From the NCBI RefSeq assembly GCF_030816015.1, contig NZ_JAUSXN010000001.1:5642001-5706000 (forward strand): a stretch of 64,000 nt of DNA, given 5' to 3'. Under the pieces are notes generated by a model. That model was not told the origin of the DNA. It did not search any database and was given only the letters and a program-made list of their open reading frames with translations. Of the stretch, positions 35,473 through 53,790 are shown in pieces (the stretch's first letter is position 1; each line of letters begins with the position of its first letter). The stretch comes from Pedobacter sp. W3I1 (GTDB lineage Bacteria > Bacteroidota > Bacteroidia > Sphingobacteriales > Sphingobacteriaceae). Made by a program: the position numbers and the translations under genes.

Positions 35473-35963
35473 AGAACCTTCATTCAACTAAGTGCGGACT
35501 TACCTTTTTGAAAGTAATTGAGTTTTTTTGTGATTATGCTCAGTGTTCAAAATATAGACTTTATCGTCTGAAATAACTTGTGAGTGTTGGAAATCAGCTA
35601 ATTAATGGCCTATATAAATTTGCATTTGTCAGTTTCAACGTAAATACTATACATATGTCCTGGCAGGATTAAAGAAGTTGTAATTCGCCACCAGTTCGCA
35701 AGTCTTAGTGCCACGGCCCAAAACAATGGCCAGACTTGTGCTTTATTTAAATTAATCTCTTTGCGAAAGCCTTAATTGATGCTAGTAAGGGCCAGGAAAG
35801 GTATTAGAAGCGGAAGCCACAAACTGCATACGCTGGCTATGGCTCATCCATCCAGATTTTCTTTTGTTTTTATTGCGAACGGAGAAAAATTTATCCGCAC
35901 ATCAACTTTCTTTTAAACTCATCAAAATCTTTGGGTTAGGGAAAACTACTTATTACCACAATA
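35473..35963. other. 491-bp gap with a MITE-like copy
   Basis: No gene recognised. The right half contains the MITE-like element copy a (35691 onward). The remainder is AT-rich with no convincing frame. Confidence 0.5.
35691..35790. mobile_element. MITE-like element copy a (right end lost)
   Basis: Left end CCAGTTCGCAAGTCTTAGTG and interior GGCCAGACTTGTGCTTTATT, TAAATTAATC match copy c (48975-49123) closely. No clear right inverted repeat is found. Confidence 0.5.
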
Positions 35964-36323
35964 TCATTTCATTAAAACTTTATGTTTTGCACCCCAATTT
36001 TCTAACTGGCGCCAAATCGGAATTAAATCGCTTGCAATTTCTGTAAGTTCATAATCTACTCGTGGTGGAACTTCCGCATAAACGGTACGTTTTACCAATC
36101 CTTCTTTTTCCATGTCACGCAATTGAAGTGTGAGCATTCTCTCCGTAATGCCTGGAATTTGTTTTCTTATTTCACTAAATCTCAACTTACCTTCTTCCAA
36201 TTTACACAAGATGATTAACTTCCACCGCCCACCTATTTTACAGACAGCATACGTCAAATTGCATCCCTCGGTAATGCATTTCTCGTTTTGCATATTGGTT
36301 GAATTTTCTTTCCTGACTCCCAT
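35964..36323 (-). CDS. HxlR-family transcriptional regulator
   Basis: A 119-residue winged-helix regulator of the HxlR/MarR-like type: CNLTYAVCKIGGRWKLIILC, KLRFSEIRKQIPGITERMLT, LQLRDMEKEGLVKRTVYAEV and PPRVDYELTEIASDLIPIW are all diagnostic. Many HxlR members sense reactive electrophiles or hypochlorite through Cys residues; this one has Cys at CNLTYAVCK and CKLEE. It diverges from the hydrolase-MFS pair across 96 bp that contain two inverted repeats. Confidence 0.95.
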   Translation of the reverse strand: MGVRKENSTNMQNEKCITEGCNLTYAVCKIGGRWKLIILCKLEEGKLRFSEIRKQIPGITERMLTLQLRDMEKEGLVKRTVYAEVPPRVDYELTEIASDLIPIWRQLENWGAKHKVLMK

Positions 36324-36324
36324 T

Positions 36325-36361
36325 ACTTACAAATTTGTTAGTACCATACATTTGAATGTAT
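36325..36361. promoter_or_regulatory. Two inverted repeats in the HxlR/hydrolase intergenic region
   Basis: ACTTACAAATTTGTTAGT (36325-36342) is palindromic except for one mismatched pair, and ATACAT-TTGA-ATGTAT (36346-36361) has perfect arms. They lie directly upstream of the HxlR ATG, so they are likely HxlR operators. Confidence 0.5.
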
Positions 36362-36419
36362 ACCGTGCAAAAATAAAGATTACCCAATAAATTTGTGGTC
36401 TATTTTACAATAAAAAAGA

Positions 36420-37334
36420 ATGAAATTATCAGAACAAGTACAAAAGGTATTGACGAAAATACAAAATATTGAAGTACCGGAGGGTCTAAGCCCCTGGGAA
36501 GCAGGAAGAGTTTTTTATGAAAAATTTATACCACTAGCAGGAGAAAAAGAAACTGTTTTTAAAATCGATGAAAAAGAATTAACCAATAATGCGCATTCGA
36601 TCAGGCTAAGAATTTATCGGCCGAATGATCATGACCGATCACCTTTTATCATTTATTTTCATGGAGGCTGGTTCAATGCCGGAAATCTTGAAACCCACGA
36701 TACTCCGTTACGCCAGCTAGCCAACTTGTCACAGGCGGTTATCATTGCGATAGATTACCGGCTTGCACCGGAACATGCCTTTCCGGCTGGCTTAAATGAT
36801 TGTGAGTTTGCCGTGAAATGGATTATTGAAAATGCATCTTTTCTTAATCTCAATCCAACTAAAATAACTATAGCAGGAGACAGTGCAGGAGGTACTCTGG
36901 CAGCTACAATTACCAGAAAATTTCGTAAAAACATAAATGCTCAACTACTTATTTATCCTGTAACAGATAATTCTTTGAAAACACCTTCCTGGAAAGAGTT
37001 TCAAAATGGTCCTCTATTAGATTTAAAAGGGGGCATTCAGGCCTGGGACTGGTATTTATCCGGATCAGCGGACCGGAACAATCCAGATGCCGTTCCACTA
37101 CTGGCAGATGATTTACAGAATTTACCCCCAACTTTTGTTGCAGTCGCCGAATATGACCCTTTGAGAGATGAGGGTATTCTTTATGCTGAAAAACTCAAAG
37201 CAAACGGCATAAACATTAACCTGAAGCTGTACAAGGGGACAACCCACGGTTTCTTTCAAATGGGTGGTTTTATTGATGACACAAAAGTTTTAATGCAGGA
37301 TATGGCCGAATTTATTAAAACTCAAAATTCTTAA
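36420..37334 (+). CDS. Alpha/beta-hydrolase, hormone-sensitive lipase type
   Basis: A 304-residue cytoplasmic esterase/lipase of the HSL-like (GDSAGG) group. The oxyanion-hole motif is FHGGW, the nucleophile motif is GDSAGGTLAA, the acid lies in AEYDPLRDEGILY and the His in GTTHGFFQMGG. Length and order match family members that hydrolyse short acyl esters. It precedes an MFS exporter by 2 bp and diverges from an HxlR regulator, so the two genes may form a detoxification pair for one ester-bearing compound. That is an inference from context. Confidence 0.92.
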   Translation: MKLSEQVQKVLTKIQNIEVPEGLSPWEAGRVFYEKFIPLAGEKETVFKIDEKELTNNAHSIRLRIYRPNDHDRSPFIIYFHGGWFNAGNLETHDTPLRQLANLSQAVIIAIDYRLAPEHAFPAGLNDCEFAVKWIIENASFLNLNPTKITIAGDSAGGTLAATITRKFRKNINAQLLIYPVTDNSLKTPSWKEFQNGPLLDLKGGIQAWDWYLSGSADRNNPDAVPLLADDLQNLPPTFVAVAEYDPLRDEGILYAEKLKANGININLKLYKGTTHGFFQMGGFIDDTKVLMQDMAEFIKTQNS

Positions 37335-37336
37335 TC

Positions 37337-39033: not shown

Positions 39034-39621
39034 ATGGATAATTTTCAAGCGCTGTTCGATTACGTTCAAAAATTTTCTGGCAAAACGCTTTCAGCAGACG
39101 ATAAGCAAATATTTATCGCACATTTCAAACCTAAAAAAATCCGGAAGCGACAATACTTTTTACAGGAAGGCGATGTATGTAAATATACCGGATTCATTGT
39201 GAAAGGCGCAGCCAAGACGTTTACGATAGATGAAAAAGGACATGAGCATATATTAAAATTAAGCATTGAAAACTGGTGGTTAGCTGATTTTGAAAGTTTT
39301 TACAAGTTGACACCAAGCCGCTTTAACATAGAAGCGCTGGAAGACATGGAGATCTTACAAATAACCCATAGCATGGTAGAGGAATTCATAAAACCTATTC
39401 CTGCCTTTTCAGCAATGCAGAACGTGCTGAGTCAAAACAACACCATAGCTGCTCAGAAAAGAATGCAATCTTCCATCAGTCAAACCGGTGAAGAACGATT
39501 TCAAGAACTTGTTAACGATTATCCGCACTTTATACAGCGGTTTCCGCAAAACTTAATTGCTTCCTACCTGGGTTTAACACCGGAAACCTTGAGCCGGATC
39601 AGGAAGAACGCCTCAAAATAA
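39034..39621 (+). CDS. Crp/Fnr-family regulator (cyclic-nucleotide-binding-like)
   Basis: A 195-residue regulator with an N-terminal cNMP-binding-type jelly roll (KIRKRQYFLQEGDVCKYTGF, VKGAAKTFTIDEKGHEHILK, WWLADFESFYKLTPSRFNIE) and a C-terminal winged helix (GLTPETLSRIRKNASK recognition helix at the end). The phosphate-binding cassette of true cAMP binders is missing, as is common in Bacteroidota members that instead regulate stress or redox genes. A TATTTTTG -7 element precedes it at 39001-39008. It lies 92 bp upstream of an SDR gene on the same strand and probably controls it. Confidence 0.93.
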   Translation: MDNFQALFDYVQKFSGKTLSADDKQIFIAHFKPKKIRKRQYFLQEGDVCKYTGFIVKGAAKTFTIDEKGHEHILKLSIENWWLADFESFYKLTPSRFNIEALEDMEILQITHSMVEEFIKPIPAFSAMQNVLSQNNTIAAQKRMQSSISQTGEERFQELVNDYPHFIQRFPQNLIASYLGLTPETLSRIRKNASK

Positions 39622-39713
39622 CTTGATCTTTGTCAAGCCTATTTAATGACTTTTGATAAGATGCAGTTCGTGGCGCAAGTGCATCTTTGGACTAACATTA
39701 AATAGTAAAGATC

Positions 39714-40466
39714 ATGAGTAAATTAAAAAACAAAGTAGCCGTAATTACGGGCGGCAATAGCGGTATTGGATTTGGTATTGCTGAAGCATTTAAAAGTGAA
39801 GGCGCTGCCGGAGCTATTGTGGGTAGAAATCACCTAACTTTAGAACTTGCTGCTGCTCAACTGGGCAATGATTTTATAGCCATCAATGCAGATGTAACTA
39901 ACTTTGCCGATTTAGAAAGAGTTTTTAAAAATACAGCCGAAAAATTTGGCAAAATAGATGTACTGGTAGCCAACGCCGGTGCAGGAACAACCGGAACAGT
40001 GGCAGATGTGAGCGAAGCTGACTACAACAAAACCATGGACCTTAATCTGAAAAGCGTTTACTTCACTGTACAAAAAGCCTTACCTTATATGAATGATGGC
40101 GGGTCTATCATTCTTATCGGGTCAAATGCCGCACATCGGGCATATCCATCATTTGGGCTTTACGGCGCTGCAAAAGCTGCAGTGATCTTTTTGGCGAAAA
40201 GCTTTTCAAATGACTTGTTAGCAAGAAAGATAAGGGTAAATGTAATCACACCGGGTACTACAGACACACCTGCATTTGATAAGTTCGTTCCTGCAGAACA
40301 AATAGAGGCTGTGAAAACACAATTTGCCAGTGTGATGCCGATAGGCAGGATCGGGCAGCCGTCTGACATTGGTAAAACAGCGGTTTTCCTCGCTTCTGAA
40401 GATTCTTCATTCTTGCTTGGCGCCGAACTTCTTGTTGATGGTGGCATGACCTACTTAGCTAAGTAA
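39714..40466 (+). CDS. Short-chain dehydrogenase/reductase
   Basis: Classical SDR of 250 residues. The Rossmann motif is TGGNSGIGFGIA, the NAxA variant of the NNAG motif reads LVANAGAG, the catalytic Tyr-x3-Lys lies in YGAAKAAVIFLAKS, and the C-terminal segment ASEDSSFLLGAELLVDGGMT is typical of the oxidoreductase group that includes glucose and 3-oxoacyl reductases. The regulator of the Crp type upstream is the probable controller. The substrate is unknown. A hairpin (TCCCTGGTA/TACCAGGGA) lies just after the stop. Confidence 0.93.
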   Translation: MSKLKNKVAVITGGNSGIGFGIAEAFKSEGAAGAIVGRNHLTLELAAAQLGNDFIAINADVTNFADLERVFKNTAEKFGKIDVLVANAGAGTTGTVADVSEADYNKTMDLNLKSVYFTVQKALPYMNDGGSIILIGSNAAHRAYPSFGLYGAAKAAVIFLAKSFSNDLLARKIRVNVITPGTTDTPAFDKFVPAEQIEAVKTQFASVMPIGRIGQPSDIGKTAVFLASEDSSFLLGAELLVDGGMTYLAK

Positions 40467-40474
40467 TTTCTTAT

Positions 40475-40506
40475 TCCCTGGTATGCATTCAAACTCGTAC
40501 CAGGGA
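40475..40506 (+). terminator. Hairpin after the SDR gene
   Basis: Perfect nine-base arms TCCCTGGTA and TACCAGGGA with a 14-base loop, nine bases after the stop. A T run is lacking, so its strength is uncertain. Confidence 0.5.
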
Positions 40507-41244
40507 TTACCAAATGTTAATGAATCGGTAATAAAATATTGAGAATGTTATGCATCTGTGTAATTCAGTGCTATTTCAACCTTGTTTCTCCATGCTTTTT
40601 CAAAATTCACTATTGCTTCACCGTGTTCAAAAAGGGTTGAACATGGCGGGATAACCATATTTGGCACGCGCCATCAGGGGAGCCGTCTGTTTAAATATAA
40701 CTTTGGTGTTCTCCTGAGTGAAGGACAACAAGTTAAATGGAAATAACTACAAAGAACGGGCAATCCATGCAGAGACGGTTTGAACCAAACTCGCGAGAAA
40801 ATAAGGACCGTTATCCTTGGTCATTTCGTTTTTGAGGCCTGCTCAACTTTGGCGTCATGTACCATCAAAAATATCGTAAAAGAAAATGCCGTATTGGTGA
40901 AGAAGCTGTTTGAGGAAGTCGCCGAAAACTACCAGTTTTTCGAAATTTGCAAACGGTACGTTTTTGTGTGACATACTCAGAACAAATGCCAATTGACCTG
41001 AACATTCACCTTAAACAGGTACATCCCTTTTCAAAACAGGTATTTACACCAGCAACTTTTAGCGCATTTATTGGGTTTTATATTTCAGCTGCTAATGTAA
41101 TTCAACAAACGGAATCAGCGTTGATGACTGTTTTATTAACACCATGGTTCCTTAAGCATCCTGATGTTACATGGGCAGATGGGTCGTGAAGCAGCAGTAG
41201 AACGTGTAAAATCAATCAATATTTTTTAACTAAATTCTTAATCT
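40507..41244. other. 738-bp gap with gene debris
   Basis: No intact gene. At 40565-40645 lies a remnant copy of the repeated module of 30362 (minus strand STLFEHGEAIVNFEK). Open stretches at 40780-40971 and 40947-41189 are too short and unlike known proteins to accept; VKKLFEEVAENYQFFEICKR might be a piece of an IS200-type transposase, which is only a guess. Confidence 0.4.
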
Positions 41245-42123
41245 ATGTTTTATCATGACAACAACCTGCAGTACAAGGTTCGGGTAGACAAACCTAATCC
41301 TGCATTTGCAAAACTATTGCAGCAAGCTATCGGCGGCATTGAAGGAGAGATCAGGGTTTGCCTACAGTACTTATTTCAGGCATGGGGAAATCGCGGACCA
41401 AATAAATACCGCGACATGCTTTTAGACACCGGGACTGAAGAAATCTCCCACATTGAAATGCTTTGTACCGCTGTAGCATTGAATCTGGATGGCGCTACCC
41501 ATGAGCTGAAAGATAAAATTGCCGGGGAAAATCCGATTGTCAGCAATATCCTTGGCGGGATGGATCCTCGCCAGGTTTTATCTTCGGGTTTAGCTGCTAT
41601 GGCCGTAGACAGTAACGGTGTACCTTTCAATGGATCGTGGGTGGTAGGTAGCGGAAACATTGCAGCCGATATGTATGCAAACGTGATGGCTGAATCAACA
41701 GGGAGGGTTTTAGCAACCAGACTTTACGAACTGACCGACGATTCAGGAATGAAGGACATGCTTTCTTTTTTGATTACCAGAGATGCCATGCACCAAAATC
41801 AATGGCTTGCTGTACTGGAAGATTTGGGTGGTGTAGGCGAGAATTTACCCATTCCTAATACTTTTCCAAGAGAAAACCATGTGCCTGGATTTGATTATGC
41901 TTTCGTATCAACCAATATCGAAAAGCCTGGAGAGTCACAGGGCAGGTGGTCAAGTGGGCCATCAATTGATGGAAAAGGTGAGTTCCATGTACTTACCGCT
42001 CAGCCTGGTCCTCCGATTCCGGATTTGGGTATTCCAGATGTGAAAGGTTATGCACAGCAGCAGCAAATGACTGGTGGGGATAAAGGATTGATTGAGAATA
42101 TTAAAGATACCATCCTACCTTAA
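41245..42123 (+). CDS. Manganese catalase
   Basis: Non-haem catalase of 292 residues that dismutates hydrogen peroxide at a di-manganese centre. The four-helix ferritin-like core shows GIEGEIRVCLQYLFQAWG, EEISHIEMLCTAVAL, YANVMAESTGRVLATRLYEL and TRDAMHQNQWLAVLEDLG, which carry the Glu and His metal ligands in the usual order (for example E66 and H69). The C-terminal part, rich in Gly/Pro, is the usual extended tail. It is the first of a run of stress-type genes. No N-terminal signal was seen, so it is cytoplasmic. Confidence 0.95.
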   Translation: MFYHDNNLQYKVRVDKPNPAFAKLLQQAIGGIEGEIRVCLQYLFQAWGNRGPNKYRDMLLDTGTEEISHIEMLCTAVALNLDGATHELKDKIAGENPIVSNILGGMDPRQVLSSGLAAMAVDSNGVPFNGSWVVGSGNIAADMYANVMAESTGRVLATRLYELTDDSGMKDMLSFLITRDAMHQNQWLAVLEDLGGVGENLPIPNTFPRENHVPGFDYAFVSTNIEKPGESQGRWSSGPSIDGKGEFHVLTAQPGPPIPDLGIPDVKGYAQQQQMTGGDKGLIENIKDTILP

Positions 42124-42135
42124 AAACTCCATCAC

Positions 42136-42179
42136 CTGATTGCGCAAACTTAGGCCGAAACCTGAGTTTGCGCAATCAG
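42136..42179. terminator. Long hairpin after the catalase gene
   Basis: Arms CTGATTGCGCAAACTTAGG and CCTGAGTTTGCGCAATCAG pair over 19 bases with one mismatch around a CCGAAA loop, 12 bases after the stop. No T run follows, so it may be a bidirectional stop or an RNA-stabilising stem. Confidence 0.6.
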
Positions 42180-42318
42180 TTCTAGCTCAATAGGAATACC
42201 TGAATAAAACAATTTTGAAAGGATGTTAAAATAGGCCCGATTCCGCACTGAAAAATACATTTATCTGCTAATTAATCCCTCCAGCCTGGATGGAGGCGCA
42301 AAACAGAAATTTTTTAAG

Positions 42319-43380
42319 ATGAAAATCAAATACATAAACAGCATGGCCAGGGCCAACTTTTTAGCGAAGCGAAATCTATTTTTGTACGGGGGATTTGCGG
42401 CATTGTTAGGCATAATATGCAGTGGCTGTGCTACCTCTGCGCCTGGCATTGGCTTACAGAAGAAAATAGCGCAGAAAACATATGTGATTATTGGTGCTTC
42501 AAGCGGATTTGGCAGAGGAGTGGCAGAAAAACTGGGCAGTTACGGCGCAAAAGTGATCATAGCTGCTCGAAGGGGTGAGGCCCTGGAAGAGGTGGCACAC
42601 ACGGTCCGGTCTAATGGCGGAACCGCGATCACTATGCCAATGGATATCAGCAAGCCAGCAGATCTGGCCAAAATTCAGGCACTTGCCCTTAAAGAATTTG
42701 GCCATGTTGATGTATGGATTAACATGGCGGGTGTAGGTGCCATCGGGAGATTTTGGGAAATTCCCATAGCAGATCAGGCGAGGATTGTAGAAATAAATCT
42801 CACGGGATTTATTTATGCAAGTCACGCCGCGATCACGATCTTCAAAAATCAGGGTTTTGGAACATTGATAAACATGGGCTCAATTGAAAGTATCAATCCA
42901 CTTGCTTATCATGCTTCTTATTCAGCTACAAAAGCCGGCGTCCTGAATCTTTCTAAAACAATCGGTCAAGAGCTGAGGCTGGCGGGTTATGACCGAATTA
43001 AGGTAGTTACAATTGAGCCCTGGGCTGTAGACACTCCATTCTGGCGTCATGCCGCCAATTACAGTGGCGGAACGCCGAGAATGGCCGCTATAGATCCGCC
43101 GTCTAAAGTAGTTAATGCGGTCATCCGTGCCTCAATCAGGCCAAGAAGAGAACTTAGCGTTGGATGGAAAGCCAAAGGGGCTAAATTTTCGCATTGGCTT
43201 TTGCCGGGATTTACCGAACGTATTTCTGCAAACATCGCTCACCGCTACCAGATCAGAAAGGCACCACCTGCGGATACGACTTCTGGTTCAGTTTTTAAAC
43301 CAATGAAGGAAGGTACCGGCGTTGACGATGGCGTACGAAAGCGAATAAAAAAAGAAAAGGAACTGCAACATAAGCATTAG
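42319..43380 (+). CDS. Lipoprotein-anchored short-chain dehydrogenase
   Basis: A 353-residue SDR with an unusual N-terminus: a basic stretch, a hydrophobic helix GGFAALLGIICSGCATS and a lipobox IICSGC that would lipidate the protein. The SDR body follows: IGASSGFGRGVAEKLGSYGA, an IN-MAG variant of the cofactor loop (VWINMAGVGAIG), catalytic YSATK in HASYSATKAGVLNLSK and a C-terminal extension rich in Arg/Lys. A lipidated SDR would act at a membrane surface, unusual for a cytosolic NAD(P) enzyme. The ATG at 42319 is taken; one at 42343 (MARANF) is a possible alternative. It lies in the stress-gene block. Confidence 0.85.
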   Translation: MKIKYINSMARANFLAKRNLFLYGGFAALLGIICSGCATSAPGIGLQKKIAQKTYVIIGASSGFGRGVAEKLGSYGAKVIIAARRGEALEEVAHTVRSNGGTAITMPMDISKPADLAKIQALALKEFGHVDVWINMAGVGAIGRFWEIPIADQARIVEINLTGFIYASHAAITIFKNQGFGTLINMGSIESINPLAYHASYSATKAGVLNLSKTIGQELRLAGYDRIKVVTIEPWAVDTPFWRHAANYSGGTPRMAAIDPPSKVVNAVIRASIRPRRELSVGWKAKGAKFSHWLLPGFTERISANIAHRYQIRKAPPADTTSGSVFKPMKEGTGVDDGVRKRIKKEKELQHKH

Positions 43381-43501
43381 CTGTTTGCCTTTCTATATTC
43401 CCTCTCCGGGGCAACGGCCAGTTGCCGCTCCTGGCCATTTGAGATACAATGGTGATAAAGTATTCATGCAATGAATGACACCTGGCAGCATAACAGGGCA
43501 T

Positions 43502-44119: not shown

Positions 44120-44387
44120 AACATTTTGTTTTTTTACTAGTAAAACAAGCTCTTTTAGGTATTGTTGACCCAGATGCCCTGCAAAAGAAAAAACAGGTAC
44201 ATTTCCAGGATTTGCAGGTATTTAACTTTTCATAGCATCTCCATTTGGCATAAATGCAATCCCGTCGGTGTAGGCGCCTACATATACTTTGAACATAACC
44301 AGGTAACCAACCCGAACTGAACAGCAGGTTTAATCAGCACTGCTCTATTTATGTAATTTGTTTCCCCTCCATATTATCAAACCAAAA
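44120..44387. other. 268-bp gap, no gene seen
   Basis: No convincing frame or structured element found here. Confidence 0.4.
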
Positions 44388-46103
44388 TTATCCTTTAAGC
44401 CAAAGCCGTCCATAGGGCTCCATTTTCAGCCTCCCGTTCTCTCCGGCCTGCCAACTACCAACAAGCACCTTTTGTTTTCCGGTAAGTGGAAGCGTTACTT
44501 CGGTGGCTTTATCACCAAAATTATGGATGATAGTGATTTTTCCAGATGGGGTCTTATACGCAATGGCCAGGACCGCATCATTTCCCAAATCCAACACCTG
44601 CCAATCCGAAACGCCCAGTTCGGGCAGGGATTTGCGTACCGATATCAGCAATTTTATAAAATTCAGTAAAGACTCTTTATCTGATAATTGCGAGGCAACG
44701 TTAACTTTCTGATAGGCATATTCTCCCATGGAAACGACAGGCCTAAAGGTTTTCTGTGCAGTACTGAACCCGGCATTTTCCATACTATTCCATTGCATCG
44801 GGGTGCGTACAGACAGTCTTTCAGCCAAAGTCAGATCATCACCCATCCCAATTTCCTCTCCCGAGCGGATCACCGGCGCCCCTGGTAACGAATAAAGTAT
44901 GCTATAAGCCATTTTAATCCGTTCCGGATTGTGCAGCATCGGCGCCAGACGCCGCCTAATGCCCCGCTTGTAAAGCTGCATATTAGCTTCCGGTCCAAAT
45001 TTCTCATAAACTTTATTGCGCTGAGATTTACTCAGCCTTCCCAAATCAATCTCATCATGGTTCCGCAAAAAATAGGCCCATTGTGAGTGTGGGGGCTTTA
45101 GTCTGGTTTCATTCAATGCCCTGATCAGTGTACCGGTTTTTCCTGTAGCCATAGAATAAAACAGGTACTGATTGACATAAAAGTTGAACATCATCTGCAA
45201 CCGCTCGCCTTTTTCCCCGAAATAGTCTATATTTTCCTTTGGTTCTACATTAGCCTCTCCTAAAAGAAGGGTCTGGTTATCAATTGACTTTGCTCCCCTA
45301 ACGATTGAATCCAGTACACCGAACATCTTGGCCGGTTTTGCCGCTCCAGATTCAGGTACATCGATGATGAAAGGCACAGCATCAAGTCTAAAACCCTTTA
45401 TACCTTTTGCAGACCAGAACCGCAAAATCTTGATCGCTTCCTGCTGTACCTCCCTATTCCGGTAGTTCAGGTCAGGCTGAAAATCATAAAAGCGGTGAAA
45501 ATAGTACCTACCTGCTACCTCATCATAAGACCATGTTTCGCTCTGGAATCCTTCAAAAACCATCCCCTCATCAAAATCCCGAGGCTTGGTTTTTGACCAA
45601 ACATATCTGGAACGGTATTTCACGCTACTATCCGAACGTGCTTTTTTATACCAGGGGTGCTCAATGGAGGTATGGTTAAGTACCATATCCATAATGATCT
45701 TGATATTATGCTTTTTTGCCTCAGATATAAAACCGTCAAAATCGGCCATGGTCCCAAGTCTTGGGTCGATACCATAATAATCACTCACATCATAGCCGTC
45801 ATCTTTGTCAGGAGTTGGCTGGAACGGAGAGAGCCACAGCACCTCTATCCCCAATGAATCCAGATAGGATAGTTTTTCAGCCAGCCCTTTAAAATCTCCT
45901 ATCCCATCACCATCACTGTCATTAAAAACGTCAACGTCCAGATTGTACACGATACTATTGCGGTACCATTCATCAGGAACTGATGCTGAGAATTCTTTGG
46001 TTTCGTGCCTGCAGGAAACCATACCGAAAAGACAAAGAAAAAGCACTATTTTGTGATTTAACAGGAATCCATGCTGATCTATAATCTTCATAACCGAATG
46101 CAT
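44388..46103 (-). CDS. GH13 alpha-glucosidase/trehalose-type lipoprotein
   Basis: A 571-residue secreted or surface glycoside hydrolase family 13 enzyme that would act on alpha-glucosidic bonds. A lipobox (LFGMVSC, Cys31) follows the signal. Core motifs: IDPRLGTMADFDGFI and MDMVLNHTS (region I), GFRLDAVP (nucleophile D241), LLGEANVE (acid E283) and FLRNHDEIDL (D350). A C-terminal beta domain ends in LEVTLPLTGKQKVLVGSW-like strands. It overlaps the stop of the small upstream gene by one base (TAATG), which supports the ATG at 46101-46103 and translational coupling. Trehalose synthase, alpha-amylase and oligo-1,6-glucosidase groups remain possible. Confidence 0.92.
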   Translation of the reverse strand: MHSVMKIIDQHGFLLNHKIVLFLCLFGMVSCRHETKEFSASVPDEWYRNSIVYNLDVDVFNDSDGDGIGDFKGLAEKLSYLDSLGIEVLWLSPFQPTPDKDDGYDVSDYYGIDPRLGTMADFDGFISEAKKHNIKIIMDMVLNHTSIEHPWYKKARSDSSVKYRSRYVWSKTKPRDFDEGMVFEGFQSETWSYDEVAGRYYFHRFYDFQPDLNYRNREVQQEAIKILRFWSAKGIKGFRLDAVPFIIDVPESGAAKPAKMFGVLDSIVRGAKSIDNQTLLLGEANVEPKENIDYFGEKGERLQMMFNFYVNQYLFYSMATGKTGTLIRALNETRLKPPHSQWAYFLRNHDEIDLGRLSKSQRNKVYEKFGPEANMQLYKRGIRRRLAPMLHNPERIKMAYSILYSLPGAPVIRSGEEIGMGDDLTLAERLSVRTPMQWNSMENAGFSTAQKTFRPVVSMGEYAYQKVNVASQLSDKESLLNFIKLLISVRKSLPELGVSDWQVLDLGNDAVLAIAYKTPSGKITIIHNFGDKATEVTLPLTGKQKVLVGSWQAGENGRLKMEPYGRLWLKG

Positions 46104-46360
46104 TAAAGATTCTGCTTAATTTTGGTTTTAGGGTGTTTGACCGGCCCGCGCCCACTGGTATCCTTTTTTGCACCAACGCTTTTCAGGCTGTCATGCTTTG
46201 GCCATTTACTGGATCTTGCATTATATTTATTAGCCCCTGGAACAGTTTTTTTGATTAGCGTATCATCGGTACTCCGTTGTCTGGTTCCGGTTGGAACCTG
46301 ACAGAACCCTGAGGCACAAAAGGCCATCAAAACAAGAAAAAAATAAGGGAATTTAATCAT
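46103..46360 (-). CDS. Small secreted basic protein upstream of GH13 enzyme
   Basis: An 85-residue exported protein: signal peptide MIKFPYFFLVLMAFCASGFC with a probable cleavage before QVPTGTR. The mature part is short, basic and probably disordered (GANKYNARSSKWPKHDSLKS, GRGPVKHPKTKIKQNL). The stop and the GH13 start overlap in TAATG, so the two are co-translated. The product has no recognisable fold. It may be a small surface or binding partner, which is a guess. Confidence 0.65.
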   Translation of the reverse strand: MIKFPYFFLVLMAFCASGFCQVPTGTRQRSTDDTLIKKTVPGANKYNARSSKWPKHDSLKSVGAKKDTSGRGPVKHPKTKIKQNL

Positions 46361-46970
46361 AATCGAAATTTGAGGCTATCAGCAGATAGCGTGAAACAAA
46401 TAGACTTACTAAAAAACCAGTGATCACAATTAGCGCGCTGTTAATAATATCGGAAGAGCTCCTTATGGCGGATGACCGAGATCAACCTTTTGGTAAACTC
46501 TTTATCGCTTTACCAGTTTTTATTAAAAACATTATTTGTAGGTGCCTGGTTTTAACATTATCCTTTAATTGCCAGTGCCGAAGGATGTAACAGATTAGAG
46601 CGGCATATATCCGATATAGATCTCGGCCGCTAGCTTACAGCTTACCCAGTAAATATATAGCCGCTCAGATTCAGTTTAACAAGTATTTCCCTGATATCAC
46701 CGATACCATCCGCGTTGCTGTTTTTTAAACGATCTTGGATAATCTGATAGACGACATTCCCTGTCACTGATTTGATTTTATACATGCGTTAGCTAATACG
46801 ATAAAGCATTTGAACATAACAGTTCGAGGCCTATGCAGTTTGGAAGCGAAATACCGTCTCACGCAACGTTTAATACCTGTGTTATATTTAAATAGAGGGC
46901 ATAAACTACCTGAAATCCAAAAGAATAAAACCAGCCTCCCGTCCTGCCAGTTTTCTAATAAAAAAAGATT
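46361..46970. other. 610-bp gap with a GH13 relic
   Basis: No intact gene. A relic of an alpha-glucosidase N-terminus lies at 46642-46785. The remaining sequence has no convincing frame. Confidence 0.5.
46642..46785 (-). pseudogene. GH13 N-terminal relic
   Basis: From an ATG at 46785 the minus strand reads MYKIKSVTGNVVYQIIQDRL, KNSNADGIGDIREILVKLNL and stops at TAA 46642-46644. VVYQI..RLKNSNADGIGDI matches the conserved N-terminus of GH13 oligosaccharidases ([23 protein letters not shown]). Only about 47 residues remain, so it is a non-functional fragment. Confidence 0.6.
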
Positions 46971-47168
46971 ATGGAACAAGAGAAAAGCAATGCCAGAAGG
47001 GATAGGATCTCCATAGCAGAAAACAATGATGACAAGCGCAGAGAATTCCATCAGCAGGATAGCGCTCAGGTAGCTCCAAAGGATCGGGGCCGTCCAAAAG
47101 AGGTTACGGGCACCATCGCCAACCTGAAATGGAAGGTGCCATCAAACGGGATCGCAGGCCTATTATAA
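46971..47168 (+). CDS. Small hydrophilic protein with AT-hook-like motif
   Basis: A 65-residue hydrophilic protein, MEQEKSNARRDRISIAENND and a DRGRPKEVTG segment that resembles an AT-hook core (RGRPK), ending in hydrophobic IAGLL. It is followed eight bases later by a strong rho-independent terminator, which is good evidence for a transcribed unit even though the protein is small and unrecognised. It is flanked on the right by a MITE-like element. The DNA-binding idea is only suggested by the RGRPK motif. Confidence 0.6.
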   Translation: MEQEKSNARRDRISIAENNDDKRREFHQQDSAQVAPKDRGRPKEVTGTIANLKWKVPSNGIAGLL

Positions 47169-47175
47169 CCTGATT

Positions 47176-47201
47176 GCAGCGGTAAAACCGCTGCTTTTTT
47201 T
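47176..47201 (+). terminator. Terminator of the small AT-hook-like gene
   Basis: GCAGCGGT/ACCGCTGC stem (eight pairs) with a three-base loop and a T7 run. Confidence 0.88.
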
Positions 47202-47205
47202 GTAC

Positions 47206-47370
47206 TACCCCAATCTAGCGCAAGTTTAGTGCCCTGGCCTAAAACAACGGCCAGTCTTGTGCCTTCGTTAAATTAACAAATTACTAAATAGAAAATTTTA
47301 CTATTTAAATATGGTGATGCACATCACTCAGACCAGTTCCTATGCACTAAGACTTGCGCTAGTGGGGGTA
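47206..47370. mobile_element. MITE-like element copy b, complete
   Basis: Terminal inverted repeats: left TACCCCAATCTAGCGCAAGT-TTAGTGCC and right (reverse complement) TACCCCCACTAGCGCAAGT-CTTAGTGCATA. Total about 165 bp, interior has AT-rich words ATTTAAATATGG and GATGCACATCACTC. The element has no ORF. Related copies lie at 35691, 48975, 51052 and 53668. It is the best preserved member. Confidence 0.75.
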
Positions 47371-47400
47371 AAATGTAAATAAACTAAATATCGAATTACA

Positions 47401-48642
47401 TTAATAAGATACCAGGGTGGTTACGCTTGAAGCCGCGAGGTTAATCCCGAAGCTTCCCCCCGTGACAGCAAAACTGTTGGCACCCAGGTTGGTTGTACTG
47501 GTGGTGAAGTAACGATCAAATCCACTTACGCTGATGCCGCTGTAGCCAAATGTTTGATAGGTTACTGCGTTATTTTGGTTTACGATTACAATAACCAGTT
47601 TAGATCCGCTTTTGTATGCGGTTACGTAAACCCCTGGGGTTGGATTGGAGGTACAGGATATTTTGCTATATCCGGGGCGTACATAACGGGCATAATGCGC
47701 CATCACATAACCTACTTTCTGGATATTGCCACTTTCACTCATTGGACCGTAGCTTCTTCTGATGTACCACCACACATAGGCACTCCAGCCGGCATTCATA
47801 CAATCGTGGATTTCTTTGGCAGCATTCATGGCATTTGCCCAGTCATCACCACTAATGCTGGAATTGGTATAATGTTCTGTCATCCAAACCGGTTTACCCA
47901 CATTCCCTAAGTTATAAGGCGTTTTGCCATAGATGTGCCCGCAAATAAAACTGGTTTTAGATTTGGCTGTGGCATTGCTGAGGTAGGTATTGATGTAAGT
48001 TTGATTCATCTGAAAAGGTTCTGGTGCCATAATGGGGGCACCGCAATTGTTACCTTGTGCGGCTACAAAATCAGCCACTTCTGATGCCGTCAGTTCCATT
48101 GATTCATAATTTACCTTATAATCTGGTTCATTGGTAGGACTAATGGCTGCGAGCCCTCCAACAGCACTATTAAAAGCACTTAAATGTGCAGCATAAGCAC
48201 CATAAGAGGCGGTATTAATTTTACCACCTACAACGCTGTTATTTGTTTTAATAGAAGCGGGTGCAGACCATGCCGATGCAATAGCCGATCCGCCGAATGA
48301 TTTACAGGCATCAATAGTTGCTTTTTCAGCGGCGAATTCTGAACTGGAATTGGGCACTCGTACCCGCACGATACTCAAACCTATACCATTTGTTGGTGAG
48401 AAAGCTGTGGTTCTTTGTGTGCTTGTTAAATCTCCCGTCCAGGCAACAATATTTGCTCCGCCAAAGCCTTTAATGGTTTGCTGTACTGTTGATGCATCAA
48501 TAGATGCAGTTCCTTCTACTGTTGCCTTTTTTGAAGAATCCGCTTGCATATTGACGTTTTTATCCGACATGTCAGTCTCATTTTTTGAACAACCAGCCAT
48601 TATAAGCGCAATTGCAAATACACTAAATAGTTTTTTTTTCAT
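47401..48642 (-). CDS. GH30_8-type glucuronoxylanase lipoprotein
   Basis: A 413-residue endo-xylanase of family GH30 (subfamily 8, XynC-like) that cuts glucuronoxylan next to methylglucuronic acid branches. A lipobox (IALIMAGC, Cys18) puts it on the cell surface. The TIM-barrel signature is complete: acid/base E172 in SPTNEPDY, nucleophile E256 in WMTEHYTN, and the aromatic/Arg loop YVWWYIRRSYGPM that in the family contacts the glucuronic acid. A C-terminal beta-sandwich (about 340-413) follows. It is an isolated gene with a MITE-like element downstream, 5 kb from a SusC/SusD-type locus, with which it would cooperate on xylan. Confidence 0.93.
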   Translation of the reverse strand: MKKKLFSVFAIALIMAGCSKNETDMSDKNVNMQADSSKKATVEGTASIDASTVQQTIKGFGGANIVAWTGDLTSTQRTTAFSPTNGIGLSIVRVRVPNSSSEFAAEKATIDACKSFGGSAIASAWSAPASIKTNNSVVGGKINTASYGAYAAHLSAFNSAVGGLAAISPTNEPDYKVNYESMELTASEVADFVAAQGNNCGAPIMAPEPFQMNQTYINTYLSNATAKSKTSFICGHIYGKTPYNLGNVGKPVWMTEHYTNSSISGDDWANAMNAAKEIHDCMNAGWSAYVWWYIRRSYGPMSESGNIQKVGYVMAHYARYVRPGYSKISCTSNPTPGVYVTAYKSGSKLVIVIVNQNNAVTYQTFGYSGISVSGFDRYFTTSTTNLGANSFAVTGGSFGINLAASSVTTLVSY

Positions 48643-49186
48643 GTGATTTTTTTTGGTTAGATAAATATTATTCGCATAAAATTAGCCATTACATTGTTTT
48701 GTAAATGGATACATTAGCCAATTTTCTAGCAAATATGTTTAACTCTTAAGGGCTTTACTTTGTACAATTTTGTACATCTATCGTGAGTAAATAATTAAAT
48801 TTAATTCATCATATCATCATAAAAAGTACATCTTCCACACAAATGTTCTATAATGGAATGGAGATTCAACAAAAAAAATTAATCAGACATAAATCACTAC
48901 TAAATAAATACATTTAATAAAAATTAAGTTTACAAGCTAACTCACCGAATTTAGAATGATTAGATCAAAGCCGCAGCTGGCGAAGTCTTAACGCCATGTC
49001 CTCAAAAAAAGGCCAGACTTGTGCTTTATTTAAATTAATCGCTTTGTGAAAGATTTAATTGATTATTACTCTGTATGCACAAGTCATCCAGCACATTACC
49101 CTTTCACTATGACTTGCGCTATCAGGAAGTATGCCCGGGAGTAACCAAAAACAAAGACAGATTAATGAAGTCGAATTTACACTAAG
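48643..49186. other. 544-bp gap with a MITE-like copy
   Basis: No gene recognised. The GH30 leader (CTAACCAAAAA motif at about 48650-48662) lies at the left end and MITE-like copy c occupies 48975-49123. Confidence 0.5.
48975..49123. mobile_element. MITE-like element copy c
   Basis: Left end GCTGGCGAAGTCTTAACGCC, interior GGCCAGACTTGTGCTTTATT and TAAATTAATCGCTTTGTGAA (near-identical to copy a), right end TGACTTGCGCTATC. The two ends are an imperfect inverted repeat. Confidence 0.6.
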
Positions 49187-49551
49187 GTGCGTGATCTGAT
49201 GGAGCAGTCTAAAGCACTGAGGCGAAGCAGCGATCAGCAGATGGAGTACCTGACGCAGCTCATGAAGGAAGCGAAACGGACGCTGAGCAGAAATATTTCT
49301 TCAAGAATTTCAGCAAGCAGTTTAAAAAAAAAGAAGCGGAGAAAAATCATCCCGATCTTTCCCCGCTCATCTAAATTAACGCTCTCGGTATCTAATACGA
49401 TCAACAACTTCATTTATTATATGCCTTGGTAATTTTTTGCAAGATTACGTATTTACCGCATCAAAAAACAGGTAGAAATGCCAGTTAAATCCCAGATTTT
49501 ATTGAAACTGTTTTTAGCTGCTAAATGTTTTTCTTAGACAAAATCACAACT
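49187..49551. other. 365-bp gap, no accepted gene
   Basis: An open stretch at 49187-49432 would encode an Arg/Lys/Ser-rich 81-residue product with no family character and no start signal, so it is not accepted. A hairpin AGCGGAGAAA/TTTCCCCGCT lies at 49335-49367. Confidence 0.4.
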
Positions 49552-49944
49552 ATGGAAAATACACCAGAAAACGCTGAGCAGCTTTTGCCGGAACAGCAGC
49601 AGGAACAAGCAACCAAAAATTCCTCCCTGGTATCCGATGGGCCTGTTAGCAAAAGTGAGGGAACAGCGCGCAATGACCTAACTGATGCAAGCGCTGAAAA
49701 CAGTGAAGAAAATGCAGGAATCGGCTTTGGCGGCATACCCCAAGAAACAGATGCTATAACCGCAAGCGATAACTTAACTAACCAAGGCGCTTCAAGGGAT
49801 CAGGACGCAGAAACAGACATTTCTAAAGGCCAGGATCAGGAAGAACCCGGCAGCGGTCTTGATGACGGAGATCTGGATACCGATGTAATAGCTGAAGATA
49901 ATGAAGAACTGGAGCAGGCCAGAGAATCAGATGCAACTGACTAA
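49552..49944 (+). CDS. Acidic disordered protein
   Basis: A 130-residue, strongly acidic, Glu/Asp/Ser/Gln-rich protein without hydrophobic core: MENTPENAEQLLPEQQQEQA to DDGDLDTDVIAEDNEELEQA. Such compositions point to intrinsic disorder, as in stress- or desiccation-type or membrane-associated linker proteins. The chosen ATG (49552) avoids a hydrophobic nine-residue upstream extension. It precedes the next gene by 11 bp on the same strand and is presumably co-expressed. No family recognised. Confidence 0.6.
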   Translation: MENTPENAEQLLPEQQQEQATKNSSLVSDGPVSKSEGTARNDLTDASAENSEENAGIGFGGIPQETDAITASDNLTNQGASRDQDAETDISKGQDQEEPGSGLDDGDLDTDVIAEDNEELEQARESDATD

Positions 49945-49955
49945 ACTAAAAGAAG

Positions 49956-50534
49956 ATGGAAAATTCACAAAACCAAAGGGTGTCGCCTACCTCAAAAAAG
50001 CAATTTCGTGAGGATGATCTGGATATTGTAAAAGGTGCCAAGGAGACCGATCAGCTTGAACAGATGCAACAAAGCGCCAAAGATAATCCGGCGCCAGAAA
50101 GAGACAAGGCAGGTACCCCGGCCGCTTTCACTGTTGATAAGGGTGAACGGCCTGTCCATGCAAATCACCCGATAGGCAAACCAATATCCGCTAAAGGCCA
50201 TGCGTTAATTGACTATGCACTTGTCGCAAGCTTACTGGTTTTACCATCCTTACTTAGCTTGAACAAAAAAACAAAGCGCACCTTTGCAGCTGAAGCATTG
50301 ATTTTATTACCTTATATTGCTTTAACCAGGCAACCCCTGGCTGTGAAAGGGTTGATCCCATTTAATACACACGGTAAAATTGATCTGTTAAATGTTGGTC
50401 AATTTGCATTGCAAAGCTTTTTCAGACCATTTCGTAAATCGAAAAAAGAACTGATGTTTAATATTGCCTTAACAGCTTTAGTGGGCCTGAATGTGATGCT
50501 CACCAATTGGAAACAGGGTAACGAAGCAAAATAA
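49956..50534 (+). CDS. Membrane protein with disordered N-terminus
   Basis: A 192-residue protein. Residues 1-75 are hydrophilic and charged; residues about 76-185 contain four hydrophobic segments (YALVASLLVLPSLLSL, AAEALILLPYIALT, VGQFALQSFF, NIALTALVGLNVMLT) separated by basic loops (NKKTKRTF, RPFRKSKKE). The conserved-looking GHALIDYALVA core recalls SPW/DUF-type four-helix membrane proteins of Bacteroidota, but I do not assign a function. It forms a unit with the acidic protein upstream and is followed by a hairpin (CGGGGAA/TTCCCCG). Confidence 0.65.
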   Translation: MENSQNQRVSPTSKKQFREDDLDIVKGAKETDQLEQMQQSAKDNPAPERDKAGTPAAFTVDKGERPVHANHPIGKPISAKGHALIDYALVASLLVLPSLLSLNKKTKRTFAAEALILLPYIALTRQPLAVKGLIPFNTHGKIDLLNVGQFALQSFFRPFRKSKKELMFNIALTALVGLNVMLTNWKQGNEAK

Positions 50535-50682
50535 TTATACCGCTATACTTGGCTAGATTATTCAAAAGGTCACCTGCGGGTGCACCAAAAAAACGGGGAA
50601 TGACCATTTCTGATCTTTCCCCGCTCATTTCAACAAAGGCTTGTATTTAAATACAACAGCCGGATATTGTTATAACTGCTTT

Positions 50683-50844
50683 TTAACCTTTTGTCTTTTT
50701 CTCAATCTCCTTCCGCTGATTCGAACCATCTTTTTTAGCATCCCTAATGTCCGATGTTTTCACACCTAGTTTTTCAGCTTCGTATTTAAGTTCGTGTGGC
50801 TGATTCGATACCGAATTCCTTTCCACTTTTGTTCCTCTTGGCAT
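50683..50844 (-). CDS. Small DUF3606-like protein
   Basis: A 53-residue basic protein (MPRGTKVERNSVSNQPHELK, then YEAEKLGVKTSDIRDAKKDG). The tail resembles DUF3606 (an HxxxYWAxxxGVSxxxLxxAV helix pair), as in small stress-type proteins that occur near DUF892, catalase and DUF4142 genes. The ATG at 50842-50844 was taken because 13 residues upstream look out of family. Function unknown. Confidence 0.65.
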   Translation of the reverse strand: MPRGTKVERNSVSNQPHELKYEAEKLGVKTSDIRDAKKDGSNQRKEIEKKTKG

Positions 50845-51307
50845 AATTGTTCCTTTCTTTGGTAAATGATAATATGATAACAATGCTAAAGAAAGGATGG
50901 TTTTAATGAAAGGTGCTGAGATGCAGATTGACTATCGCGACTTTGAAGCTTCCAGTCTTTTTATCAACTATTCCGGCATGAGTTTTTAATTTTTCTGATA
51001 ACAGATAACAGACCTTTATTGTTTAACTCCTTGAATTCTTAAGATATGGTCCTATCTAGCGCATTATAGTGCCCCGGCTCTGAACAATGGCCAGACTTGT
51101 GGTTTCATTAAATTTTATTATTTAAATATCGTAGATACACATTCATCCTGCCCGCTTGCCCTATGCACTAAGAATGAGCAGTGAGGGTTGTGCTCTAATT
51201 AAATTAACAAATTATTCTCATTAGAAATTTATTAACTGGTGCCTTCTCACAAGATGTAAACAAGATTTTAGTAAACACGAAGGGAGTTGATGGGCGTACG
51301 ATCTGCA
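50845..51307. other. 463-bp gap with a MITE-like copy
   Basis: No gene recognised. MITE-like copy d occupies 51052-51188; the rest is AT-rich. Confidence 0.5.
51052..51188. mobile_element. MITE-like element copy d
   Basis: Left end TATCTAGCGCATTATAGTGC, interior CAATGGCCAGACTTGTGGTT and TTTAAATATCGTAGATACAC, right end TATGCACTAAGAATGAGCAG. Shares the b/e-type interior (ATTTAAATATCGTA). Confidence 0.6.
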
Positions 51308-51835
51308 TTAATTGGTTATGTATTTCGAGGAGATTAGTAACAGCAAAGTACGGTCTGCCTTGGCCTCATCGTAATTTTCTTTTAAGAGCTGGTTAATATG
51401 CTTATTTTTGAGTTTAACAGCCGCCATCTGTAGAATCTGAAAGGACGCCATTTCAACACTTTCAATGTTTTGCAGATAGAAAATAATTGATAGGTCACGG
51501 AGTTCAGGTTCGCCAATCTGTTCATTAATTGCTTCGAAAGCATCTTGAATAAGGCCGATTAATCCGTGAGTACTTCCCCTGGAAACTTCAGCGTCCAGTA
51601 GCGAGTAGATGACTTCCATCCTTGCGATCTGTTTTTCTACATCCGCAACAGTCTCATTAATTGCATTCTTTAGATCGGCAAACTCTACTTCGTTTGCTAG
51701 AGTTGGCAGTTTAGATACCAAATGGAGCTTAGCACCATATATACGGTCAAGATGCTTGATAAAAAAAACTTTAAGCTTATCGGAGCCAAGGTTAATTTTC
51801 TTCCAGGAGCGGGATTTTCCATGTGTTTCAGACAT
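51308..51835 (-). CDS. DUF892 (YciE/YciF-type) ferritin-like protein
   Basis: A 175-residue helical protein of the DUF892 family (YciE/YciF). The diagnostic helices LKVFFIKHLDRIYGAKLHLV, VEKQIARMEVIYSLLDAEVS and FYLQNIESVEMASFQILQMA are visible. The family has a ferritin-like four-helix bundle and is induced by stress; its enzymatic role is not settled. It is co-oriented with and 17 bp downstream of a response regulator, which probably shares its transcript. Confidence 0.88.
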   Translation of the reverse strand: MSETHGKSRSWKKINLGSDKLKVFFIKHLDRIYGAKLHLVSKLPTLANEVEFADLKNAINETVADVEKQIARMEVIYSLLDAEVSRGSTHGLIGLIQDAFEAINEQIGEPELRDLSIIFYLQNIESVEMASFQILQMAAVKLKNKHINQLLKENYDEAKADRTLLLLISSKYITN

Positions 51836-51852
51836 AATAGCACTTTATAGTA

Positions 51853-52215
51853 CTAAGTTATGAATTCTTTCACTTTTTCAAGAAGTTTATTGATGTCAAA
51901 TGGTTTGTTCACATAACCATTTGCCCCACATGTGCTTGCCCGCTGATGGACATCATGCTCAGCAGAGACCAGTAGCACCGGAATATCGTTAAGCTCCAGC
52001 TCACGCTTAATTTCCGCACAAATTTCATCCCCGGTTTTGGAAAATCCAACAATCCTTACATCCAAAAGAATGAGGTCGGGACCAATTAGCTTCACCTGAT
52101 CAGCAGTGGTGCCCGTATTTTGAAGCACAACCTCATATCCCTCTTCTGCAAAAAGAATATCTAAAATAGAAAGGATATCCTCATCATCATCGATCACTAA
52201 TATACGTTTAGCCAT
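51853..52215 (-). CDS. Single-domain response regulator
   Basis: A 120-residue CheY-like receiver. The acidic pocket is IDDDEDIL, the phosphorylated Asp lies in LILLDVRIVG, the switch Thr/Ser in LLVSAEHD and the conserved Lys in NKPFDINKL. There is no output domain, so it acts by protein contacts or phosphotransfer. It precedes the DUF892 gene. The PAS-AraC regulator lies upstream on the same strand. A cognate kinase was not found in the window. Confidence 0.93.
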   Translation of the reverse strand: MAKRILVIDDDEDILSILDILFAEEGYEVVLQNTGTTADQVKLIGPDLILLDVRIVGFSKTGDEICAEIKRELELNDIPVLLVSAEHDVHQRASTCGANGYVNKPFDINKLLEKVKEFIT

Positions 52216-52274
52216 TTGGATAGTTATATGGTTACATAATGTTTATCAAAATTTCAGTGCCAACGTCCAACCAC

Positions 52275-53108
52275 TTATAATAATTCGGCAACCCGGATGC
52301 CATAAACCTCGTAGAAAAGCCTGTTAAAATGACCTCTGGAACTGTAGCCTGCTATACTTGCTATTTCCTTGACTGAGCGGTATTTACCTGACGCAATCGC
52401 CTCCCATGCCAGTTGCAAACGGATGATCCTTACCAGCTTATTTGGCGTAATGCCCAATATACTGTGCACCCTTCGAAAAAGCTGCCGCTGGCTAATCGCC
52501 AAAGCATCGCTGATCAGATCGAGATTAAGTTCAGTTTTCGCAGCATTCTGGCGAACAATAGTTTCCAGGCTGTTAAGCCAGAACTGGTCCGACTGGGAAG
52601 GCTCTTCAATCATCTTCTGTCCATCATCTGCCTTAAATGCAACAAAAGTCCTGTTTACAGCAGGCCTATGCTGTTTGAAACGATTATGATGGTCATCATT
52701 GATCATACCGAGGATGGAAGAAATCCGTTCATATTCTTCCAACTGCCTGCGGTAGGTAATATCCTTTGCAATAGCAAAGACCAAGTTGTCCCTTTTGATC
52801 GGTACCGATGTCCAGCTCAGCCATATCACGCTACCATCCTTGGCAACGTACCTGTTCTCAAAGTTAAGCAACGAACGCCCTTCCAAAAGCGCAGCCCCTT
52901 TTTCTGCCGTCCGTTCCCTATCATCATGATGGATAAAATCGTTTATCGGCGAAGCAAATAGTTCATCCTCCGTATAACCAAGCACATTGCAAACCGCCGG
53001 GTTGATTTTTTTGAAATACCCATCAAATCCCACAACGCACAACAAGTCGGGTGCAACTTCAAAGAAATACTCCAGGTCAAAAACCTTTTGAGATTTTAAC
53101 TTGCCCAT
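52275..53108 (-). CDS. PAS domain AraC-type regulator
   Basis: A 277-residue regulator. An N-terminal PAS domain (about 10-130: PDLLCVVGFDGYFKKINPAV, YTEDELFASPINDFIHHDDR, VAKDGSVIWLSWTSVPIKRD) is followed by a linker and a C-terminal AraC double HTH (about 185-277: LISDALAISQRQLFRRVHSI, then LQLAWEAIASGKYRSVKEIA and GYSSRGHFNRLFYEVYGI). The PAS fold would bind a small ligand or sense redox. Its upstream gap has a 10-bp inverted repeat (53154-53223). It is likely monocistronic upstream of the response regulator and DUF892 genes. Confidence 0.93.
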   Translation of the reverse strand: MGKLKSQKVFDLEYFFEVAPDLLCVVGFDGYFKKINPAVCNVLGYTEDELFASPINDFIHHDDRERTAEKGAALLEGRSLLNFENRYVAKDGSVIWLSWTSVPIKRDNLVFAIAKDITYRRQLEEYERISSILGMINDDHHNRFKQHRPAVNRTFVAFKADDGQKMIEEPSQSDQFWLNSLETIVRQNAAKTELNLDLISDALAISQRQLFRRVHSILGITPNKLVRIIRLQLAWEAIASGKYRSVKEIASIAGYSSRGHFNRLFYEVYGIRVAELL

Positions 53109-53153
53109 TCCATATTCTGGCTCATATCCTTACCTTTAAATAATTGTTGTTTG

Positions 53154-53223
53154 TTGACATAATTGAAATACAAATCTTATCCAAATTGTTTTTAATTCAA
53201 TACTAACGTATTGATTATGTCAA
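53154..53223. promoter_or_regulatory. Widely spaced inverted repeat upstream of the PAS-AraC gene
   Basis: TTGACATAAT (53154-53163) and ATTATGTCAA (53214-53223) are perfect 10-bp inverted copies 50 bp apart, with ATAC/GTAT partly continuing the pairing. The spacing, about five helical turns, fits looping by an AraC-type dimer. Confidence 0.4.
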
Positions 53224-53533
53224 TTTTGCGAACACATTCGGCAGCTCTGTGACCAAGTCAATAAAATTGCAATTCCATGCCTATAGACCTATTGAAAATA
53301 ATATGTCCGATTGACTTGCTCAAATACCAAAGAGTTATATACCTTCAGTTCTATTATCTTGCAAAAAAATGTTAAAATTACTGCTACAATTTGCCCTTTC
53401 CGCTCTTGAATCCAAGGTGACCAGCCATCGGCAAAAAAGGAAATGCCGTTCTCCAAAATGCTTCAGCGGAAAACCTGCTCATCTGGTTAGAGCAAATCGT
53501 GTTGTGCGTTAGTATAGAGAATTTCCGCTCAAA

Positions 53534-53662
53534 GGTAATCAGGGAAAGTATGATGTGTAGACCTATTATCCAAAACCTGGTGCTACCGATGCAGAAACCA
53601 CAATAACAGTGTTTAATGGTAAAGAAAGTAAGACTATTTTAATTAAAGATACAGAAGTTAAC
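53534..53662 (+). pseudogene. Golvesin-like domain fragment
   Basis: One frame reads GNQGKYDV, stop, TYYPKPGATDAETTITVFNG, then KESKTILIKDTEVN. This resembles the golvesin-like C-terminal domain of xanthan-lyase-type or FAD-dependent oxidoreductase proteins (GxYxVYxYYPK..ATxxATxTVFDGK). A TAG replaces the expected Tyr codon. The fragment ends within a few bases of MITE-like copy e. Family recall is from memory. Confidence 0.45.
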
Positions 53663-53667
53663 CTATA

Positions 53668-53790
53668 TTTCTGTGCTTTCGTTAAATTAACAAATTCTTT
53701 CAATAGAAAATTTAATAGTTAAATATCGTAAATGCACATTCATCCAGCCCACTGTCTTATGCGCTAAGACTTACGCCAGTGAGGGGGGTA
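53668..53790. mobile_element. MITE-like element copy e (left end lost)
   Basis: Begins in the interior (TCTGTGCTTTCGTTAAATTA) and continues with TTAAATATCGTAAATGCACA and CATCCAGCCC to the right end TATGCGCTAAGACTTACGCC followed by GGGGGGTA. The left inverted repeat is missing. Confidence 0.6.

Follow-up and report, generated by a model that had tools for sequence, protein, structure and literature searches.

Short intergenic repeats of Pedobacter sp. W3I1 are probably gene-less derivatives of a RAYT transposon found in related Pedobacter

What are the five short repeats that lie between accessory genes of Pedobacter sp. W3I1, and which enzyme could have spread them? They are found in a stretch of 64 kb (hereafter the window; C1:5642001-5706000) of a genome that forms a single contig of 6.40 Mb. 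A preliminary description, made from the sequence of the window, had presented them as a MITE-like family of five copies sharing both terminal inverted repeats and a conserved internal word. The family itself is real, as GCGCAAGTCTTAGTGC with up to three mismatches occurs at 5 sites in the window against 0.32 expected by chance and a family profile recovered all five copies with E-values from 1e-37 to 1e-20. Both ends are present in three copies on the plus strand, namely copy b (47210..47372; left unit 47212-47270, right unit 47317-47370; E 3e-37), copy c (48973..49128, E 4e-35) and the degenerate but complete copy d (51051..51190, E 3e-27). The other two, also on the plus strand, are truncated. 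Copy a (35691..35792) retains the left hairpin unit and the left part of the core, is missing the greater part of the right half through deletion and terminates in GCTAGTAAGG, its profile match at 35697-35780 corresponding to model positions 10-93. Copy e (53670..53789) comprises the right two thirds without the left hairpin unit (model positions 48-160, E 6e-25) and also lacks the word GGCCAGACTTGTG, so that neither the two ends nor the internal word are common to all five. The proposed division into two interior subtypes agrees with the identities: copies a and c, which have the same core subtype, are 83% identical over 90 nt, copy e matches b at 81% over 115 nt and d at 79% over 89 nt, and b and c are 68% identical. 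Every copy is intergenic and devoid of any open reading frame or gene, as had been stated. The genes around the repeats (39034-53108) are of stress type and encode Mn catalase, short-chain dehydrogenases, DUF892 and DUF4142 proteins, a response regulator and a PAS/AraC regulator.

Outside the window the profile matched about 15 further genomic places, so the copies are not one-off similarities. These lie at 1181.9 and 1184.2 kb (minus strand), at 1964.3, 1967.1, 1967.7, 1979.7 and 1981.2 kb, at 3339.9, 3340.9 and 3529.5 kb, and at 5380.7, 5392.1 and 5394.3-5395.0 kb; at 5730.7 kb there may be an additional partial copy, for which there is only a pattern match. The whole genome holds about 20 copies and fragments in about seven clusters, dispersed and intergenic, and the description of the copies as non-autonomous mobile elements whose parent transposase lies outside the window is borne out. 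The exact 20-base end CTAGCGCAAGTCTTAGYGCC was found in 30 stretches among 84,980 species genomes, all 30 from Pedobacter, and a repeat search of 119 Pedobacter genomes found the family in 32, with same-strand arrays in several. The repeats are a version, special to the genus Pedobacter, of a known kind of mobile DNA.

A complete copy has an AT-rich core between two hairpin-type units of inverted orientation, one reading CTAGCGCAAGTCTTAGYGC..GACTTGTGC and the other its inverse. Its four arms, GCGCAAGTC and GACTTGTGC in the left unit and GCACAAGTC and GACTTGCGC in the right, are built on one shared 9-mer, and hence either end forms an inverted repeat of its own and the two ends are mutually inverted; some copies, including copy b, have a degenerate inner arm in the right unit. 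We aligned 115 left and 101 right units from across Pedobacter, among them those of copy b and of the copies 5380, 5392, 1967b and 1981 of the same genome; copies c and d fit the full-length profile. The left unit reads CCYATCTAGCGCAAGTCTTAGCGCC..GGCC..GGCCTGACTTGTGCTTT and the outer edge of the right unit CTAGTRAGG. Nearly every aligned unit has CTAG or CTGG at its foot, and the GT[AG]G tag is absent, which means that the elements are not canonical GTAG REPs.

The parent was encountered in related species. In P. ginsenosidimutans KACC 14530 (genome G011, L140:6972-7526 for the RAYT gene) the same two ends enclose a gene for a 184-aa RAYT on the opposite strand, and the full element of the relatives runs from the left unit CCYATCTAGCGCAAGTC..GACTTGTGC through the oppositely oriented RAYT gene to the right unit GCACAAGTC..GACTTGCGCTAGTRAGG. 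The preliminary description had proposed to look for a full-length IS with the same ends; a RAYT-bearing element with these ends exists in related Pedobacter but was not found in the strain's own genome. The P. ginsenosidimutans protein scores 94.4 bits against NF047646 (NCBIfam REP-associated tyrosine transposase, cut-off 80) and 41 bits against PF01797 (cut-off 23), carries the motifs NHVH, YLHNNP (with 84 residues between the two), WRQ and YSSA, and has E. coli TnpA-REP (4ER8) as its sole relative by sequence in the PDB. When this protein was used to search the genus, the matches fell into two groups, one of 13 genes from 11 genomes with 72-100% identity and one of many genes that do not exceed 61%. 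The family ends stand in the correct geometry at all 13 genes of at least 72% identity, two upstream ends at locus borders (G092 1418813 and G050 155193) being taken from the genus-wide repeat listing, and at 2 of the approximately 41 more distant RAYTs examined. The association between ends and RAYT clade (Fisher p 1.2e-11) is best read at the level of the clade, since a few genes were counted twice and related genes were treated as independent. The repeats were also present in 10 of the 11 genomes with this clade against 22 of the 108 others (p 5e-6).

We consider, with a probability of roughly 0.87, that the copies are gene-less REPIN/BIME-like derivatives of a RAYT transposon, either internally deleted forms or REP doublets, which now persist as decaying orphans. 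Y1 HUH enzymes such as TnpA-REP read hairpins in single-stranded DNA, cut at their foot and move DNA without target duplication. By analogy, the RAYT would recognise both units as single-stranded hairpins and cleave at the hairpin foot, and the segment between the units would move as single-stranded DNA whether or not the RAYT gene is inside; deletion of the gene may have given rise to the short forms. Loss of the cognate RAYT from the strain's own genome would then have left the copies behind as decaying orphans. Target-site duplications, which the preliminary description had suggested as a check, were not seen, as the complete copies inspected are not bordered by direct repeats. A clean empty site was not found for copy b in its closest relative, G051, nor for the 5380 and 5392 copies by comparison with other loci; at these two each side derives from a different locus and therefore one boundary can be read at a time. 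At 5380.7 kb the right end interrupts an ORF whose intact form exists elsewhere, which fixes the right boundary of the element at CTAGTGAGG.

The elements might instead be classical MITEs, that is, non-autonomous derivatives of an IS with a DDE transposase and terminal inverted repeats of about 20 bp, and their good outer inverted repeats as well as their short, AT-rich, gene-less and intergenic nature are what such a derivation predicts. However, RAYT was the only transposase found between the family ends among the loci read, target duplication is missing, and each end is an inverted repeat in itself (GCGCAAGTC..GACTTGTGC), a feature that DDE ends do not need. The RAYT-bearing elements have already largely refuted a MITE origin and we regard it as improbable. 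The label MITE-like was thus apt in so far as the elements are non-autonomous and mobile, but the parent in relatives is a RAYT (Y1/HUH, IS200/IS605-like) and not a DDE enzyme; with a RAYT between exactly these ends and no target-site duplication, REPIN/BIME-like is the better name.

Folding was examined as it bears on a second alternative, a conserved structured RNA or a regulatory DNA element maintained under selection. Whole elements fold better than shuffled sequence both as RNA and as DNA (z -3.4 to -5.1), which would favour it, but this is expected of any inverted repeat and the stability stems from the inverted repeats here. In the aligned units the outer arms of the hairpin are paired in 97% of cells but are nearly invariant, position 3 of the outer stem always being a G-T pair, and the inner stem is paired in 69%. 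Covariation across the aligned units was not significant and did not exceed the shuffle control, and as the outer stem hardly varies, covariation is unusable as proof of pairing. Moreover, the copies differ by up to 39% and include two truncated ones, and in G051 the orthologue of copy b has diverged clearly more than the gene next to it, where the DNA is 92% identical. A known regulatory RNA, the outcome that the preliminary description had set against its own reading, did not appear, as no copy was matched by an Rfam family at gathering score and the best match by E-value overlapping a copy was a chance match far below the cut-off. Selection for such a function is therefore quite unlikely, and the five repeats of the window are ordinary remains of mobile DNA, not regulatory elements.

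Derivation from a RAYT transposon further predicts an orientation linked to replication. When tested, 16 of 19 clusters in four genomes followed one rule, by which the sense strand of the element is the C-rich strand (p 0.004), and 15 of 18 did so after removal of one orthologous pair (p 0.008). Counting was manual, and origin and terminus were placed from sampled GC skew; as this skew is coarse and the clusters are partly inherited, the strand bias is supporting evidence only. Integron-like or other site-specific recombination sites, hairpin sites of one orientation that separate accessory genes, would share the single orientation within each cluster and the imperfect palindromes between accessory genes, but are the least credible origin because the family ends pair with a RAYT and not an integrase, the adjoining genes are large and of mixed orientation, replication half and local array growth account for the uniform orientation, and left and right units alternate in arrays, for which reason an attC reading was dropped.

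To return to the RAYT derivation, a cognate RAYT was not found in the strain's own genome by scans for Y1 genes and in the stretches examined, which makes the window copies orphans. None of its ten Y1 transposase genes is flanked by the family ends. The closest homologue (C1:5833357-5833836), and the only one in the relevant part of the RAYT family, is broken, shares 38% identity and has a different repeat, GTCCTCGTTTGTAACGAGGA, on its flanks. Beside one left unit lies a RAYT fragment (C1:3340061-3340180) of a different RAYT with its own repeats, AAGCTGGTGCGAGCTTG, and hence a nested neighbour rather than the parent. This second RAYT (L091:4062-4364; 3340.06-3340.36 kb) is represented by its first 40 residues with about 92% DNA identity to a gene of G057, and it shows that the genome once held another RAYT family too.

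The copies of the genome are mostly 61-85% alike, and copy b is kept in G051 beside the same gene; together these indicate that most copies are old. The pair at 5380.7 and 5392.1 kb, in which the element alone was duplicated, is 99% identical over 148 nt with different flanks, and movement or conversion therefore continued until more recently. The first of the pair (L094:5567-6252; 5380.6-5381.3 kb) lies directly after tRNA-Ser(tga), where it cuts short a reading frame of 139 aa, fuller relatives of which occur elsewhere in the same genome and in G031 and G020; this place is possibly the edge of an island. The second (L094:17020-17075; 5392.02-5392.07 kb) abuts 51 bp of what is apparently one half of a tRNA gene, the other half being absent, and similarity to most Pedobacter genomes ends at precisely this point.

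Other repeats are found among the family as well. In the copy at 5394.3-5395.0 kb (L094:19310-19970) the left hairpin is interrupted by a mobile repeat with the ends CAATGCCATTAAGTTAAG / CTTAACTTAATGACATTG, and a CGTCATTGCGAGG repeat lies inside the core; ends similar to the CAATGCCATTAAGTTAAG / CTTAACTTAATGACATTG pair adjoin the orthologue of copy b in G051. A mosaic array of about 2.7 kb in Pedobacter sp. Leaf176 (G003, L138:6800-9520) contains at least three repeat families, that of the window, CTGGTGCGAGTTTGTAGCTC and CTGGCGCAAGCGTCTCGCTTG. In this array, repeats belonging to different RAYTs seem to have inserted into one another. Sites like CGTCATTGCGAGG occur at 5960, 8626 and 18611 of the window (3 against 0.75 expected) and are perhaps the GTCAT..GATGAC repeats that the preliminary description had set apart from this family; they resemble the CGTC-tagged REPs, which have no known transposase (Di Nocera 2013, PMC3733652).

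Among known systems, IS200/IS605 elements resemble the Pedobacter elements in their Y1 HUH transposase, subterminal hairpins, lack of target-site duplication and replication-tied orientation. They are not known to have terminal inverted repeats, and the Pedobacter RAYT is closer to TnpA-REP than to TnpA-IS200. With REPINs/BIMEs (Bertels and Rainey 2011, PMC3116915) the elements share two inverted palindromic units around a gene-less spacer, an intergenic position, several copies and a RAYT for each family. They differ in being longer (140-165 bp, with units of 45-55 nt), in the foot CTAG/CTGG instead of GT[AG]G and in low copy number; the cognate RAYT flanked by the same units, by which REPINs/BIMEs are recognised, is found in 11 other Pedobacter genomes but not in the strain's own. 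The portions of Quentin et al. 2018 (PMC6006769) that deal with RAYT subclass 2.6 (Bertels group 5) of Bacteroidetes describe proteins of about 180 aa with NHVH, W..Q, Y-H-NNP and a C-terminal YSS, and atypical flanking structures without GT[AG]G that have copies elsewhere in the genome. The Pedobacter RAYT has these motifs and a comparable spacing between HUH and tyrosine (84 residues against a published median of 82), so it would belong to subclass 2.6 as judged by motifs alone; the same portions give no detail on gene-less doublets in Pedobacter. TIRtrons/TIRYTs (Di Nocera et al. 2013, PMC3733652) are likewise RAYT-like genes flanked by long inverted repeats that are not GTAG REPs and have TIR-derived repeat families, but the Pedobacter inverted ends are also internally palindromic and thus stand between REP and TIR.

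In the sections of Quentin et al. (PMC6006769) on REPtrons, these do not appear to transpose as a unit. The Pedobacter RAYT units are less ordinary in this respect, as they occupy about eight gene contexts across 11 species when 1.3 kb of flank is considered, and more than one copy is present in two genomes. On these grounds it is conceivable, though somewhat doubtful, that this RAYT clade is a true insertion sequence which moves with hairpin-type inverted ends and sheds REPIN-like derivatives, and is not domesticated or vertically inherited; rearrangement may also have produced the different contexts. If true, the clade would form a living link between the IS200/IS605 elements on one side and the REP/RAYT system on the other. 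With its ends defined and its partner transposase named, the family serves as a worked case of the RAYT repeats of Bacteroidetes that lack GTAG and are poorly described. As genomes with and without the RAYT are available, it can be tested whether RAYTs move themselves or just their repeats, and what becomes of RAYT repeats after the transposase is lost.
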